Assembly (NCBI GenBank): GCA_002394525.1
Contig: DGUF01000193.1
Location: 12,504 to 18,903 of the forward strand
Reading direction: 5' to 3'
DNA from: Lachnospiraceae bacterium UBA4317
GTDB taxonomy: Bacteria > Bacillota_A > Clostridia > Lachnospirales > Lachnospiraceae
Length of the DNA: 6,400 bases
Positions 1,596-6,400 of the stretch are shown one piece after another (positions within the stretch are counted from its first letter, which is position 1; every line of letters begins with the position of its first letter). Both the position numbers and the translations under genes were made by a program. The notes under the pieces are model-generated. The model did no database searches. It was not told the DNA's origin and saw nothing but the letters and a program-made list of their open reading frames with translations.

Positions 1596-4500
1596 TCACA
1601 AGCCCCGGCTCCCGGCAGATCCTTTTTTTCTGCAGGCAGCCGCCAAAAAGAGCGCAAGCAGAGCCGGGACAAGGACCGCGGCGGCGGGCGCGGAGGGTTC
1701 GATCAGGGCCAGGAAACGGACCAGGGGGTCCGTAGTGACCAGAAAACGAAGGCTCGTATCCGTGTTTTCATTTCTCGCCCGGTCCCTGGTGACGATCTCG
1801 ATCAGCTGCCATCTGGCTTCCTCCTCCAGATGGACCGGAATCTCGATCCTGCCGTTCCTGGTCAGATTGTGGAGATCCAGTTCTGTCTGTGCTGCGGCCT
1901 CCGGATCAGGAACCTTCGGATCCATATAGCGGCAGATCAGGACCCTGTCCGGCGCCCTGCCCGGTATATCTCTCCCGTTCCCGCGCCAGCCGGTCCGGAA
2001 ACGGAGCTCCACCGAGGAGACGCCGGACTGGCCGTCCTCCGGAAGGACTGTCAGATCCAGGGATCTCGCCCGGATCCTCCGTTCGTGCGGGTCCACCCCC
2101 GCGATCCGGATGGACGGCGGCGTGCGGTCGACGCAGAAGGCGATCGGAAAGCTCGTGACCCTCATAATCTGCGGGTCCGCGCCGTCCTCCATCATCTGGG
2201 CCGTCGAGTTTTCATTGCCCTCCCGGTCCCTGCTTTCCGGCTCCGCGACGTCCTCCATCATCTGGGCCGTCGAGTTTTCATTGCCCTCCCGGTCCCTGGT
2301 GACCAGGAGGAAGCTGTAGTGGCCGTCTCCCGCAAAGACCCTGTCGTCGATCTCATAGCGGTAGCGGCAGTCTCCGTCGGTCTCTTTTTCCGTGATCCGC
2401 CTGTATTCCTCCCCTTCCTTCAGTTCTCTGGAAAAGCCATCCTTCGTCCTGTAGATCCGGTACTGCGTGATCCTGACCGGGCTGATCTCCCGCACACTGA
2501 CGGGGCCGTCGACCCGGTTGTTGTAATACCTGCGGACATAGGCACAGGTCCGGCTGTTTTCGGGGTCCGGCCTCCCGCCGCCTGCGTCCCCTTCCTCAAA
2601 GGTCGATCCAAAGCGGTTGAGGCTGAAGCGGAACCGGGCCAGGGGACTGCGGTTGCCCGCCAGGTCCACGGCACAGGCCTTCACATAATAGACATCGTCG
2701 AAGCTCTTCTTTATCTCAAATTCCGGCAGGCAGAGGTCAATGCAGCGGTTCTGCGTTTCTGTACACGCCCCCTCAAAGGGCGTGTACATGCAACGTTGCG
2801 CGCGGCGATTCCAATACGCTTTGCGTGCGCCGCGCGCCGTTAAACTCGGGTTTTGCGCAAAAAGCGTGCGCAAAACACCTCGCGTTTCGGGTGAATCTGA
2901 ACTGTAACGGTTCTGCACCTTAGCCTCCGGCCGGGCTCTGTATACAGTCCCCCTGCCGGCCCCCTCCGCAGTAAAATAAGACCGGTCCGCGTCAAACCAG
3001 GTATCCTCCACCCTCACACGCGGCCGGAAGAGCCCCCCTGTGTAAATGCAGTCGTCCAGGGGGAGGTCTCCGGACCAGCCGCTGCCATCCGCGCCGAAGC
3101 GGAAGGGTCCGCTCCTGTCAAAGAGAAGCTTCGGCGGGGTCATGTCCACGACAAACTCCCCGCAGACTGCCTCCCGGGCCCGGTTGCCGGCGGGATCGGT
3201 ACAGCTGACCCGGATGGAGTAGCAGCCGTCCCTGTCAAAGCGGACACTGGCCGTGTGGAAGTCTCCGTCCGCGGAAAAAGCCGTCGGCTCCGGCTCCGGC
3301 GGCCGCGGATCATCTCCCCCGGCTGACGCGGTCAGCTCCAGCTTCAGGTCCTGGCGCCGGAAATTGTGCTCGCGGACCGTGATCAGGGCTGTCTGGGCCC
3401 TGTTGTAGTACCTGCCGTTCCGGACATCGGTGTTCTGGAGAAAAATACTGATCACGGGGACAGTCCTGTCGACCGTGAAGGCCTGCGGGGCCGGGCCCTT
3501 CCACTGGACCTGTCTGATCCGGTTGCCCAGGGCATCGGTCCCATCCAGGTCCAGGCTGTAGTCGCCGTCCCGGTCGGCGGCCAGCCTTTTGACCCAGCGG
3601 TCTCCGTCTCCCTTCTCCCCCCTGCCGTCCGAAGTCCGGTTGGGGTGGGGGGCCTCAAAGCCGCCCTTCGCTTCCATATTGGTCCGAATCCTGATCTTTT
3701 CGCTGTCCATGTTGCGGTCAGTCACGATGATCTCCGCCTGCCGGCTGCCCGCGAAATATTTTTCATTGACGGGCGGAGCCTGATCCCGGTAAACGACCTC
3801 GACCAGAGGCCCCACCGTGTCGATCCCCAGGCGGACCAGGCCGCCGTCCCGGGAGACCGAGGACCGGTTGCCGCTGTTGTCGGCCGCCTCGACCCGGACG
3901 GTGATGTCGTTGGACTGGGCAAAGGAGGCGGTCGGTATGTGGATCGCCGCGTCCCGGATCTCATAGAGGAGGTCCGGGTCTTTTATGTTCGTATTTCCGT
4001 TTTTATCCATCTTTTTCCTCTTTTTTATATTGCTCTCATAAGGAATGCCCTCCGCTGTCACCCTGTCCGTGATATCCACATCGCCCGCGGTCACCCTGAG
4101 GCTGACTTTGGAGAGGCCGGAGCTGCGGGCGGCCCCTCCGGGGTCCGTGACCGAGACTTTGAGGTCGAGCGTCTTACCGGCAGGCCGGTAGATATAGCGC
4201 TCCCCGTCGGCCTCGTGGCGGGTAAACCGCCCGTCTGCCAGGATCCTGACCTCGGGGGCCTCCGCATCCGTGACCGGAGACACCCGGGGCGAATCTGTAT
4301 CCAGGTAGATCCTGCCGCTCTCCGCCATGGTCCAGGCGGCGCCGGGCTCATTGATCCGGACATTGCCGGCCCGGTCCTCCAGCAGGATCTTCTCCAGGTA
4401 AAAGACCTGGTCCCCGCTGACCTTCATCTCCAGGGAATTGTCCTCGTTCCAGCCCCTGTCTCCTCCGCTCACGACCGGGTTTGAAGCGGCAAAGATCCTG

Positions 4501-6400
4501 TCCCTGTCCCGGTCCAGAGACCGCAGGGCGCAGGTGACCCTGGTCGGGGACAGGTCCCTGGTCCCGATCAGCGCGGCCGCCCGGGATTCACTGCGGAAGG
4601 GCTCATAGCGGACAGGCCGGTTGGCATCCATATCGAAGCGGAATTGATAGAATGCCTCCCCAGCTTCCTGCCCTCCTTTCCCTCCTTTTCCGCCTCTTCC
4701 GCCCGCTCCAGCCGTTCCGGCCGGGCCGGATCCGGCAAAGACCCTGAGGTCTCCGGTCGGAGGCGTGACATCGATCACCTTGCGCCCGCTCCAGTACTGC
4801 CCGTTGTTTTTTGCCCCGGAGGAACTACCGCTGGTCCCGCAGGGGTATGTCGCGGCCGCCCGGGCTCTGAGGGCCCCGGACCTGTCGTTCTGCTCCTGGG
4901 CGGCAGAGGGCCGCAGGAGATTGCCGGCCATATCACTGCCCCCGATCGAGAAGCGGTAGCTCCCTTCATTGCGGCTGCAGGCCTCGACCTGCATTTCAAA
5001 TACGGCCTTTGTCCTGCCCCCGCTGACCGAGGTCCCTGTGCATTCCAGGGCGGGCGGCTCCCAGGCCGGGAAAATCCGGGAGAAGCTTTCGGAGTCCGCC
5101 CCGCTTTCTTCATGATCCGGCCCGCCACTTCCCGCAGCCAGCTGACTGCAGATCCCGGACCTGATCCTGTTCTTATCAAAATTCATATCTTCCACCCTGT
5201 AGACTGCCCGGATCCCGGAAACCGCCCTCCCGTAATAGACGATCTCCCTGTCCCTGGCGGCATCGAACCTGTCCGCCAGCTTGGCAGGCTGGTTGATGGA
5301 AAAGCTGTAGACCGGCGGAGTCGTATCGATAATGACGGTAAAAAGAGGCCTGTAGCCGGTCCCGCAGTCTCCCGCTGCCCGGGCTGTGCTGCAGCCCACA
5401 GGGGCGTACTGCCTGTTGACCCGGGTCCCGGCAGCAAATCTCTCGGTCACAGCCGCGGGATTTCCGGCCCGGTCCCGGCCCCAGGCCCCGAAGCTGTAGG
5501 CGCCGTCCCCGCTTCCTGCCGGGAGCCGAAAAACGGCCGTCTTCCGCCAGCTGCTCCTGATCCGGTCCGCCTCTTTGGGGGCCGTCAGATATGGCCGGAA
5601 GGACCTGTTGTAAAAAAGCCGGCTCCGGTCCGGATTTTCCTCCTCCAGGGAAAAAACCGCCTCCGCCTTCCCGCTGATGCAGGCCTGAAGGCCGGCGGCG
5701 GAACTTCCGGCACCTGCCGGTCTTGCTCCGCCATCGTCTGTCCCGGTACCGCCGGAGGATCTTCCAGTCCCGGCCGGGTCAGCTCCGGCGCCGGCCGCCG
5801 CGCCTGAAGCCTCTCCGGAGGCCTTCCCGGCTCCGGCTGCCTCATCCGCATAGACAAAGGCCGTGGCGCCCGGAAGACTGTATTCGAGCGTGATCTTCGG
5901 CGGAGTCCTGTCAATGACCAGACTGCAGCGGGAGGCATATCCGGTCCCGCATCCCTCTGTTCTCTCCTTCAGCCCCTTCTTAAAGGCCGCTGCGCTGCCG
6001 GTCCTGTTTTCCGTCTTTCCCTCAATGACCTCCGTGACGGCAGCGGGGTTGCCGGCCTTGTCCTCGCCCCAGATGCTGAAGTGGTACTCCCCCTCCCGGT
6101 CTGTACACAGGAGGTCCATGCCGGCCTCCCGGTCCCACTTCTTTGCGCCTGTCTTTTTCCCCTTTCCTTCCGCACATATATAAAAGAGGCGTCCGGGGTC
6201 AATATGTTCATTTTTTACGGTCGCGGAGGCTTTCACTTCCACCTTTCCCGACAGGAAAGCGTAAACATGACCGGCATCAGAACCTGCCGAACCTGCTTTT
6301 GCAGTGTCCGGCGTCACAGAGGCCGCCGGCACTGTCTTCGCTTTAGGTCCTGTTCCGCCCGCCGGTACTGTCTTCGCCGCGGTTCCTGTTCCAGCCGCCG
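1596..6400 (-). CDS. Giant Ig-like repeat surface protein, N-terminus outside window
   Basis: The frame stays open from the stop at 1596-1598 to the right edge: 1600 complete codons, with no in-window start needed, so the 5' end is missing. The GTG at 6332 is internal, since the same repeat-bearing frame continues upstream of it. The product is a chain of about ten Ig-like modules. Each runs from a strand plus an E-x-NFD-like motif (VREHNF, VEDMNF, VTDRNM) to a D-x-AGN turn and a closing D-x-TPP linker. Near the C-terminus one hydrophobic helix is followed by RKKGSAGSR, predicting an outside body anchored in the membrane. No LPXTG sorting motif is present. Alanine/glycine-rich and glycine/lysine-rich linkers interrupt modules. 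One module contains a palindromic insert and another a 22-residue duplication. No catalytic domain is recognisable in the visible part. Adhesion, or a stalk carrying an unseen N-terminal domain, is plausible but inferred. Confidence 0.9.
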   Translation of the reverse strand, partial: AAGTGTAAKTVPAGGTGPKAKTVPAASVTPDTAKAGSAGSDAGHVYAFLSGKVEVKASATVKNEHIDPGRLFYICAEGKGKKTGAKKWDREAGMDLLCTDREGEYHFSIWGEDKAGNPAAVTEVIEGKTENRTGSAAAFKKGLKERTEGCGTGYASRCSLVIDRTPPKITLEYSLPGATAFVYADEAAGAGKASGEASGAAAGAGADPAGTGRSSGGTGTDDGGARPAGAGSSAAGLQACISGKAEAVFSLEEENPDRSRLFYNRSFRPYLTAPKEADRIRSSWRKTAVFRLPAGSGDGAYSFGAWGRDRAGNPAAVTERFAAGTRVNRQYAPVGCSTARAAGDCGTGYRPLFTVIIDTTPPVYSFSINQPAKLADRFDAARDREIVYYGRAVSGIRAVYRVEDMNFDKNRIRSGICSQLAAGSGGPDHEESGADSESFSRIFPAWEPPALECTGTSVSGGRTKAVFEMQVEACSRNEGSYRFSIGGSDMAGNLLRPSAAQEQNDRSGALRARAAATYPCGTSGSSSGAKNNGQYWSGRKVIDVTPPTGDLRVFAGSGPAGTAGAGGRGGKGGKGGQEAGEAFYQFRFDMDANRPVRYEPFRSESRAAALIGTRDLSPTRVTCALRSLDRDRDRIFAASNPVVSGGDRGWNEDNSLEMKVSGDQVFYLEKILLEDRAGNVRINEPGAAWTMAESGRIYLDTDSPRVSPVTDAEAPEVRILADGRFTRHEADGERYIYRPAGKTLDLKVSVTDPGGAARSSGLSKVSLRVTAGDVDITDRVTAEGIPYESNIKKRKKMDKNGNTNIKDPDLLYEIRDAAIHIPTASFAQSNDITVRVEAADNSGNRSSVSRDGGLVRLGIDTVGPLVEVVYRDQAPPVNEKYFAGSRQAEIIVTDRNMDSEKIRIRTNMEAKGGFEAPHPNRTSDGRGEKGDGDRWVKRLAADRDGDYSLDLDGTDALGNRIRQVQWKGPAPQAFTVDRTVPVISIFLQNTDVRNGRYYNRAQTALITVREHNFRRQDLKLELTASAGGDDPRPPEPEPTAFSADGDFHTASVRFDRDGCYSIRVSCTDPAGNRAREAVCGEFVVDMTPPKLLFDRSGPFRFGADGSGWSGDLPLDDCIYTGGLFRPRVRVEDTWFDADRSYFTAEGAGRGTVYRARPEAKVQNRYSSDSPETRGVLRTLFAQNPSLTARGARKAYWNRRAQRCMYTPFEGACTETQNRCIDLCLPEFEIKKSFDDVYYVKACAVDLAGNRSPLARFRFSLNRFGSTFEEGDAGGGRPDPENSRTCAYVRRYYNNRVDGPVSVREISPVRITQYRIYRTKDGFSRELKEGEEYRRITEKETDGDCRYRYEIDDRVFAGDGHYSFLLVTRDREGNENSTAQMMEDVAEPESRDREGNENSTAQMMEDGADPQIMRVTSFPIAFCVDRTPPSIRIAGVDPHERRIRARSLDLTVLPEDGQSGVSSVELRFRTGWRGNGRDIPGRAPDRVLICRYMDPKVPDPEAAAQTELDLHNLTRNGRIEIPVHLEEEARWQLIEIVTRDRARNENTDTSLRFLVTTDPLVRFLALIEPSAPAAAVLVPALLALFLAAACRKKGSAGSRGL
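1632..1691 (-). other. C-terminal transmembrane anchor of the surface protein
   Basis: About 20 residues rich in Ala, Leu and Val (starting APAAAVLVP and ending LAAAC) are followed at once by RKK and an eight-residue tail. The positive-inside rule places the tail in the cytoplasm and the Ig-like modules outside. Sortase anchoring is unlikely because no LPXTG-type motif precedes the helix. Confidence 0.85.
2176..2298 (-). repeat. 66-bp in-frame tandem duplication
   Basis: The segment 2176-2232 recurs at 2242-2298 with a single mismatch (2183 against 2249) and a period of exactly 66 bp. In protein, DREGNENSTAQMMED occurs twice, 22 residues apart, at the D-x-x-GN turn of one Ig-like module. The near-identity at DNA level marks a recent slippage or unequal-crossover event. 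The frame is kept, and the following VDRTPP linker is intact. Confidence 0.95.
2760..2788. repeat. Hairpin 1 of the palindromic element
   Basis: TGTACACGCCC (2760-2770) and GGGCGTGTACA (2778-2788) pair perfectly over 11 bp around a 7-nt loop. Confidence 0.92.
2792..2841. repeat. Hairpin 2 of the palindromic element
   Basis: GCGCGCGGCG (2798-2807) and CGCCGCGCGC (2828-2837) pair perfectly over 10 bp. An outer AACG/CGTT stem (2792-2795, 2838-2841) follows past a two-base bulge. The 20-nt loop holds its own small hairpin, ACGC-TTT-GCGT (2816-2826). Confidence 0.9.
2850..2876. repeat. Hairpin 3 of the palindromic element
   Basis: GTTTTGCGCA (2850-2859) and TGCGCAAAAC (2867-2876) pair perfectly over 10 bp around a 7-nt loop. 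Flanking GG/CC and AAAC/GTTT (2842-2845, 2884-2887) could lengthen the stem with internal loops. Confidence 0.92.
3978..4028 (-). other. AT-rich, basic patch within an Ig-like module
   Basis: The encoded segment (from IKKRKKMDKNG to NIKD) is Lys/Asn-rich, and its DNA is visibly AT-rich within a GC-rich gene. It sits in a loop between the strand-forming parts of the fifth module and may be a slippage-grown or foreign insert. Confidence 0.5.
4653..4733 (-). other. Glycine/lysine-rich linker
   Basis: About 27 residues are mostly Gly with Ala, Lys and Arg (GRGGKGGKGGQ core), placed just after the third D-x-TPP motif. It is probably a flexible, unstructured linker between modules. Confidence 0.75.
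5682..5834 (-). other. Alanine/glycine-rich low-complexity linker
   Basis: About 50 residues are dominated by Ala, Gly, Ser and Thr, lying after the first D-x-TPP motif and before the next strand (AVFSLEEENPDRS). It is probably a disordered spacer, similar in style to the repeats at the right edge of the window. Confidence 0.75.
6325..6400 (-). repeat. 36-bp in-frame tandem repeat near the missing N-terminus
   Basis: The segment 6325-6356 recurs at 6361-6392 with six mismatches and a 36-bp period, and a further copy seems to begin at 6393. The protein reads as 12-residue units (GTGTAAKTVPA, then GTGPKAKTVPA), rich in Ala, Gly, Thr and Pro. The array runs off the window. It probably forms an extended linker ahead of the first Ig-like module. 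Confidence 0.75.

Follow-up and report, generated by a model that had tools for sequence, protein, structure and literature searches.

A MITE inserted in frame in a surface-protein gene of a Lachnospiraceae bacterium and its likely IS66-type mobiliser

Introduction

How does a block of consecutive hairpins come to lie within the open reading frame of a large surface-type protein? The question is raised by a stretch of 6,400 nucleotides, here called the window, from Lachnospiraceae bacterium UBA4317 (contig DGUF01000193.1, positions 12,504 to 18,903). A preliminary description, made from the letters alone, took the block for a non-autonomous mobile element that is adapted in length and codon phase to coding sequence and has been domesticated in the gene. 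Rickettsia palindromic elements (RPE), which Ogata reportedly described in 2000 and 2002, are said to be about 150 bp long and palindromic, and a number of copies are said to lie in frame within metabolic genes that are unrelated to each other. The review PMC10969869 describes in-frame MITE fusions as not unusual and such fusions by the Rickettsia palindromes as unusually frequent, and regards the same in-frame route outside Rickettsia as conceivable.

Results and Discussion

The element in the window and its host gene

The block was found to be a complete copy of a MITE family, here called family A, which carries no transposase gene within its 154 nt (Table 1). Its nearest complete relatives in the family are 89-90% identical to it. 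The 9-bp direct repeat that had been noted at a distance of 162 bp is real, but its length is not: it consists of an 8-bp target-site duplication and one chance base, since the last C of the element equals the flanking C. Likewise, the block itself stands, while its core measures 154 nt instead of 153. The element and one duplication add up to 162 bp, or 54 codons, and the minus-strand ORF remains open through them, so that exactly 54 residues are added without a stop, as had been described. The three consecutive hairpins were also read correctly, all with perfect 10-bp arms and two with loops of equal size. In the family, a short outer stem encloses hairpin 1, and the stem of hairpin 3 reaches into the terminal repeat. 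Folding of positions 2740-2920 gave z-scores of -4.2 as RNA and -5.6 as DNA against 200 dinucleotide shuffles, none of which (0/200 in either case) was as low. Searched with the Rfam covariance models at E values of up to 1, window positions 2600-3050 gave no hit. No match to the block was found in plasmids or phages, and none to the insert peptide in viral contigs.

Table 1 Features of the element and its host gene in the window.
Feature	Position	Strand	Basis
MITE family A, complete, 154 nt	2755..2908	- (consensus orientation)	whole-element profile match, 140.1 bits
Target-site duplication copy 1, GGTTCTGC	2747..2754	.	exact repeat of 2909-2916
Target-site duplication copy 2, GGTTCTGC	2909..2916	.	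exact repeat of 2747-2754
Terminal inverted repeat, element 5' end, GTTACAGTTCA	2898..2908	-	same ends, with up to 2 substitutions, in 99 copies and in IS66-type element L186
Terminal inverted repeat, element 3' end, GTTTCTGTACA	2755..2765	+	1 substitution relative to GTTACTGTACA
Hairpin 1, perfect 10-bp arms, 7-nt loop	2850..2876	.	folding; helices 1-2 of pair count
Hairpin 2, perfect 10-bp arms, 20-nt loop	2798..2837	.	helix 3 of pair count
Hairpin 3, perfect 10-bp arms, 7-nt loop	2761..2787	.	folding; helix 4 of pair count
Host gene, large surface-type protein with Ig-like modules (Big_13, Big_3_4)	1596..6332	-	ORF and domain matches

When read from stop to stop, the host ORF is open past the end of the window, and the gene is probably longer than the window. 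An empty site in an orthologous surface protein, one of the signs expected of a mobile element, was found in the closest orthologue (L176 in genome G003), which lacks the 54 residues. Its junction reads RGARITSR-AENEEENRFFDLCMPEFEI, compared with RGTVYRARPEAKVQNR-54 residues-CIDLCLPEFEI in the window, and it shares 65% identity with the window protein on one flank and 45% over the aligned region. A second orthologue (L177 in G030; 33% identity) also lacks the block, with a wider gap. A search for the window gene in the genus gave hits in 10 of 62 genomes, many of them to the element alone.

Other repeats are present in the window. The host gene contains a 66-bp in-frame tandem duplication (2172-2298; 97% identity over 61 nt, encoding SRDREGNENSTAQMMED-like residues) and an adjacent pair of 36-bp repeats (6323-6394; 78% identical) coding for a sequence rich in Ala, Gly, Thr, Lys and Pro. 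At its start (5-40), the window has the 11-bp unit CCCTTGTCACA three times in tandem. A LacI-family regulator is encoded on the minus strand (233-1465). Its HTH match begins at residue 51, which makes the ATG at 1327, 46 codons into the ORF, the probable true start.

Copies in other genomes

A search with the insert peptide, which the preliminary description had proposed as a check, confirmed 20 loci in six Lachnospiraceae/Eubacteriales MAGs, out of 210 stretches that fitted the pattern. With one DNA copy as query (E <= 0.001), the six genomes other than that of the window host yielded 61, 21, 45, 43, 13 and 20 matches; in three of the six, 40 candidates were scored, and their figures may therefore be too low. 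Many dispersed copies per genome, as in a MITE, were thus present in all six. The element was detected in 11 of 61 genomes of the genus of G001. A DNA search of 397 genomes across the family, in which at most two candidates were scored per genome, gave matches in three, namely G001 itself and two genomes with partial matches of 40-67 nt. Within the genomes sampled, the element is nearly confined to one genus. The records of some element-bearing MAGs indicate, in our reading, an origin from rumen or sheep gut.

The copies end in GTTACWGTWCA. We collected 99 distinct copies that are 140-195 nt long and have a terminal repeat on each side, with up to two substitutions per end, and compared the 8-mers adjoining them. 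These were identical in 57 copies and differed at one position in 21 (78/99), compared with 4, 0, 0, 0, 1 and 0 of 99 when one side was shifted by 1, 2, 3, 5, 8 and 11 bases, respectively. Of the other 21 pairs, seven had two mismatches, two had three, and twelve had five to seven; these may be old copies or pairs that arose by chance. Elements identical in sequence were found with different duplications at 5, 3 and 2 sites, indicating recent movement. Complete family A copies (111-192 nt) are short and free of transposase genes, carry terminal inverted repeats at both ends, and are flanked by duplications of a fixed length of 8 bp. The claim of a non-autonomous mobile element, for which multiple copies with variable flanks had been named as support, is borne out by these copies, by their differing duplications and by the empty orthologous site. 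The likeness to bacterial MITEs as described in PMC10969869 extends to short gene-less bodies, inverted ends, target duplications, high copy number and ends linked to insertion sequences; the three-hairpin interior with exchanged stems sets the window family apart.

These data also bear on the notion that the block is native sequence of the Ig-like protein that forms hairpins by chance. The uninterrupted ORF agrees with it, but the same 154-nt sequence recurs between 8-bp duplications at many sites that are unrelated to each other and for the most part intergenic. The sequence is neither unique to this gene nor shared by all orthologues, as L176 demonstrates, and we consider this already refuted reading to have next to no probability.

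Insertion sites and the question of adaptation to coding

The gene context was analyzed for 82 copies of 111-192 nt. These had been selected to carry both ends and a duplication that is either exact (61 copies) or has a single mismatch. Once joined, the empty site lay within an ORF of at least 200 aa, with 15 codons or more on each side, in nine of the 82; among random positions of these loci the figure was 767 of 1000. The copies thus lie mostly between genes, and several of the nine ORFs are themselves frames next to a recognisable gene, either antisense or extended. Copy lengths of 153, 154 and 155 nt were represented by 20, 23 and 12 copies, and the net length was divisible by three in 31 of the 82.

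Among 198 distinct hits, six had a frame that crosses the element without a stop and continues for 40 codons or more in both directions: the window gene, trpF (L172), L030, L072, L256 and L076. The last four, together with L041, were considered as in-gene copies and rejected, because their long frames adjoin genes on other frames or strands, which places these copies between genes; the neighbour genes were recognised by Pfam for L030, L041, L072 and L256 and by eye for L076. Seven other loci (L007, L033, L200, L225, L143, L226 and L238) were assessed by eye only. Two copies lie at gene ends. At L057 (1953-2104), miaA (PF01715) runs at its 3' end into the copy, from which it takes its final residues and its stop codon. 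At L219 (1590-1744), its first bases, GTAAC, give the stop of an otherwise complete iron-alcohol dehydrogenase gene. The insertions recognised in genes are thus two internal in-frame ones and these two, in a method that frame-breaking insertions may escape.

The two internal insertions concern unrelated proteins, the window protein and TrpF, and to this extent the expectation of in-frame copies in unrelated proteins was realised. A shared frame or peptide was not found: counted from the start of the element, the first full codon has an offset of 2 in the window and of 1 in trpF, and the peptides differ. Nor was a relative of the window insert peptide found in proteins of 868-2761 aa or of about 140-446 aa by searches that need shared 5-residue words and cover one frame only. 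These two inserts, with their different frames and peptides, give no support to domestication, and adaptation of length and codon phase to coding finds no support in the avoidance of genes and the copy lengths above.

Could the element nevertheless be a coding-adapted palindrome of the Rickettsia kind, with length and peptide selected for life in proteins? Frames are open in a fraction of 0.240 of the cases compared with 0.166 in shuffled copies, an excess that is common to related copies, and this agrees with such a reading, as do the two internal in-frame insertions. However, the sites avoid genes, copies of 154 nt are hardly commoner than those of 153 nt, the two inserts share neither frame nor peptide, and the window peptide had no relative in the proteins searched. 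We regard coding adaptation as decidedly improbable. Most simply, an insertion survives in the rare case that it is in frame, free of stops and placed in a loop; the data support a mobile element inserted in frame, and not one that is domesticated or built for coding.

The likeness to RPE, as these are described in PMC10969869, consists in the length of about 150 bp, the palindromic structure and the in-frame copies. Here, by contrast, in-frame copies are rare, their frames differ without a shared peptide, and there are 8-bp duplications and an IS partner. We regard the family as a new MITE family with Rickettsia-palindrome-like behaviour. In the open-licence literature, we found neither this family nor in-frame insertions of IS66-derived MITEs described, and in the passages of MITE papers checked for IS66 the name appears only in insertion-sequence tables.

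Filled and empty forms of TrpF

The second in-frame copy lies in locus L172, where trpF (PF00697; 1628-2392) follows genes with trpD-type and IGPS (trpC) domains. It is 154 nt long (2062-2215 of L172), in frame, and flanked by duplications with one mismatch. Two TrpF proteins of the PDB align on both sides of the insert and lack it. Among the 120 TrpF homologues listed of 1376, P0003-P0006 are uninterrupted (FDWSRAESFRRPFILAGG), 200 aa long and 95-96% identical, and the filled form P0002, from a cluster of 57 member sequences, has 254 aa, 54 residues more than the empty forms. Only P0002, P0016 and P0001 matched the insert among those 120. P0016 lacks a stretch elsewhere in the protein. In P0001 (190 aa), the reading changes within the insert and the enzyme is truncated, which suggests either that some filled alleles are broken or that a short contig was misassembled. 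If P0001 is genuine, filled TrpF seems to occur in tolerated as well as broken forms.

An AlphaFold2 model of the filled TrpF (46 aligned sequences) had a mean pLDDT of 81.4, with 170 of the 254 residues above 90 and residues 150-198 below 50. The insert is accordingly predicted to be a disordered loop that leads up to the strand of residues 204-207.

A probable mobiliser of the IS66 type

In G001, the same ends were found 2,628 bp apart within an exact duplication, CAAAAATT (L186, 1077-3704). This element encodes a 568-aa ORF with a DDE_Tnp_IS66 domain (PF03050; E = 1.3e-10, 41.6 bits vs a cut-off of 23.1) and a second ORF of 124 aa for which no match was found in Pfam or NCBIfam; it represents a probable autonomous partner with the ends of the MITE. 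Its protein scores below the NCBIfam IS66 equivalog cut-off (NF033517; 110.5 bits vs 180), and L186 may be a divergent IS66 member or belong to a sister group. At the 5' end, the MITE still resembles the insertion sequence outside the 11-bp core (many copies read GTTACAGTACAGACCCACCTGAAA, L186 reads GTTACAGTTCAGACCCATCTGAAA), and the 3' end matches over the core only.

Four more elements (in G052, G032, G040 and G021) were picked up by the similarity of their transposases (35-42% identity) and not by their ends. All four are bounded by GTTACWGTTCA and flanked by 8-bp duplications without mismatch; the G032 and G040 elements are almost alike and occupy different sites. The duplication of 8 bp, as in IS66, is exact in L186, L208, L209, L210 and L211. 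A close transposase (93% or more) occurs in two of the 11 element-bearing genomes, G001 and G028, in the latter cut by a contig end. Elsewhere it may have been lost from the draft assemblies or be gone. From the shared ends and duplication length, we infer that an IS66-family element likely mobilises the MITE.

According to PMC12898284, ISDge4 of the ISBst12 group has ends GTGACTACTCAGCA/GTAACTGCTCAGCA and an 8-bp repeat, CCTCGATG. It resembles the elements described here in its ends, close to GTTACWGTTCAG, in the 8-bp duplication and in the IS66 transposase domain. L186 differs from the IS66/ISBst12 group in its additional 124-aa ORF and in starting with GTTAC, and the window element differs in carrying no transposase gene.

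The G003 genome harbours a second MITE family, family B (L113-L130), of 72-207 bp with GTTACAGTTCAG ends, the same as those of family A. Many of its members derive from one long palindrome by internal deletion and nevertheless transposed. Duplications of 8 bp with at most one mismatch flank 17 of 18 loci, which were picked for having both ends; the exception is L128. This speaks for a transposase active on these ends in the G003 lineage.

Two other candidates were discarded. An IS110-type element at L111 sits between matching ends and was considered as the autonomous partner; comparison with intact copies revealed it to be an insertion inside a family B MITE. The gene for the IS110 family RNA-guided transposase (NCBIfam; L111:1045-2923) lies some 96 bp inside the left end of this MITE, immediately ahead of the GCTTTTTGC stretch at its centre, and IS110 elements may use the family B MITE as a target. 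At L112, an inverted pair of ends encloses an adk-like gene (by eye) and has no duplication, and was therefore interpreted as two separate copies.

Strong conserved hairpins and mostly intergenic copies would also suit a REP-like palindrome that uses its hairpins as substrate and owes its dispersal to a RAYT (Y1) transposase or to some other non-DDE route. Duplications of 8 bp and terminal inverted repeats are unexpected for Y1/RAYT transposition, but both are common to our copies and the IS66-type elements, and such a route is very unlikely.

Conservation of the stems

Stem conservation was assessed in an alignment (A1) of 51 copies of 150-156 nt, 44 of them distinct. The RNAalifold consensus omitted hairpin 1, so the pairs were counted on a structure of 39 pairs written from the sequences by hand. 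This three-hairpin structure was formed in 96.0% of cells vs 86.0% in shuffles, and slid versions reached at most 57.0%, a comparison biased in its favour because it was derived from the same sequences. Both sides of a stem had changed in 163 cells, compared with 52.8 in shuffles. The middle hairpin (helix 3) was paired in 99.3% of cells, with paired changes in seven of its ten pairs. Its arms are swapped among copies as whole paired blocks of few types (GCGCGCGGCG-, GCGAAAATCG- and GCGTTCGCCC-like), suggesting a small number of independent events. Hairpin-templated repair could yield paired stem changes too. The pattern of paired changes argues that the stems are retained, as a property of the element at the nucleic-acid level and not as a feature of the protein.

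The stems might be functional RNA or terminator modules kept for the regulation of neighbouring genes and not for transposition, a proposal compatible with a MITE. The excess of cells changed on both sides and the intergenic bias of the copies are in its favour. However, Rfam gave no match, paired changes may also arise by hairpin-templated repair or inverted-block exchange, and the stem-2 types are few. We consider this role fairly unlikely.

Origin of the insertion and its implications

The block in the window is, with high probability, a MITE that an IS66-family transposase probably moved in trans. A transposase of the IS66 family (ISBst12-group-like) would recognise the GTTACWGTTCA ends of this short gene-less element, move it in trans and make the 8-bp duplication, and one copy would have inserted in a loop of an Ig-like module. 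Since 154 and 8 add up to 162 and the needed frame happens to be stop-free in the window copy, the gene would have survived with 54 extra residues. The interrupted gene is presumably expressed, with the insert tolerated as a loop.

A wider proposal is tentative, and we would put it at somewhat less than an even chance. An ISBst12-type MITE may add disordered loops of about 54 residues to working enzymes and surface proteins outside Rickettsia; its stems may be selected on the single-stranded element, for transposition or for muting its effect on mRNA, and alleles like that of trpF may persist in populations because they are translated.

Whether such inserts are tolerated or useful is an old question that comes from the Rickettsia palindromes, and here it arises in an ordinary gut lineage. 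TrpF with 254 or 200 residues (otherwise 95-96% identical) and the surface protein provide natural filled and empty forms. Together with the known ends, the duplication and the probable transposase, they would make the question testable in laboratory strains.
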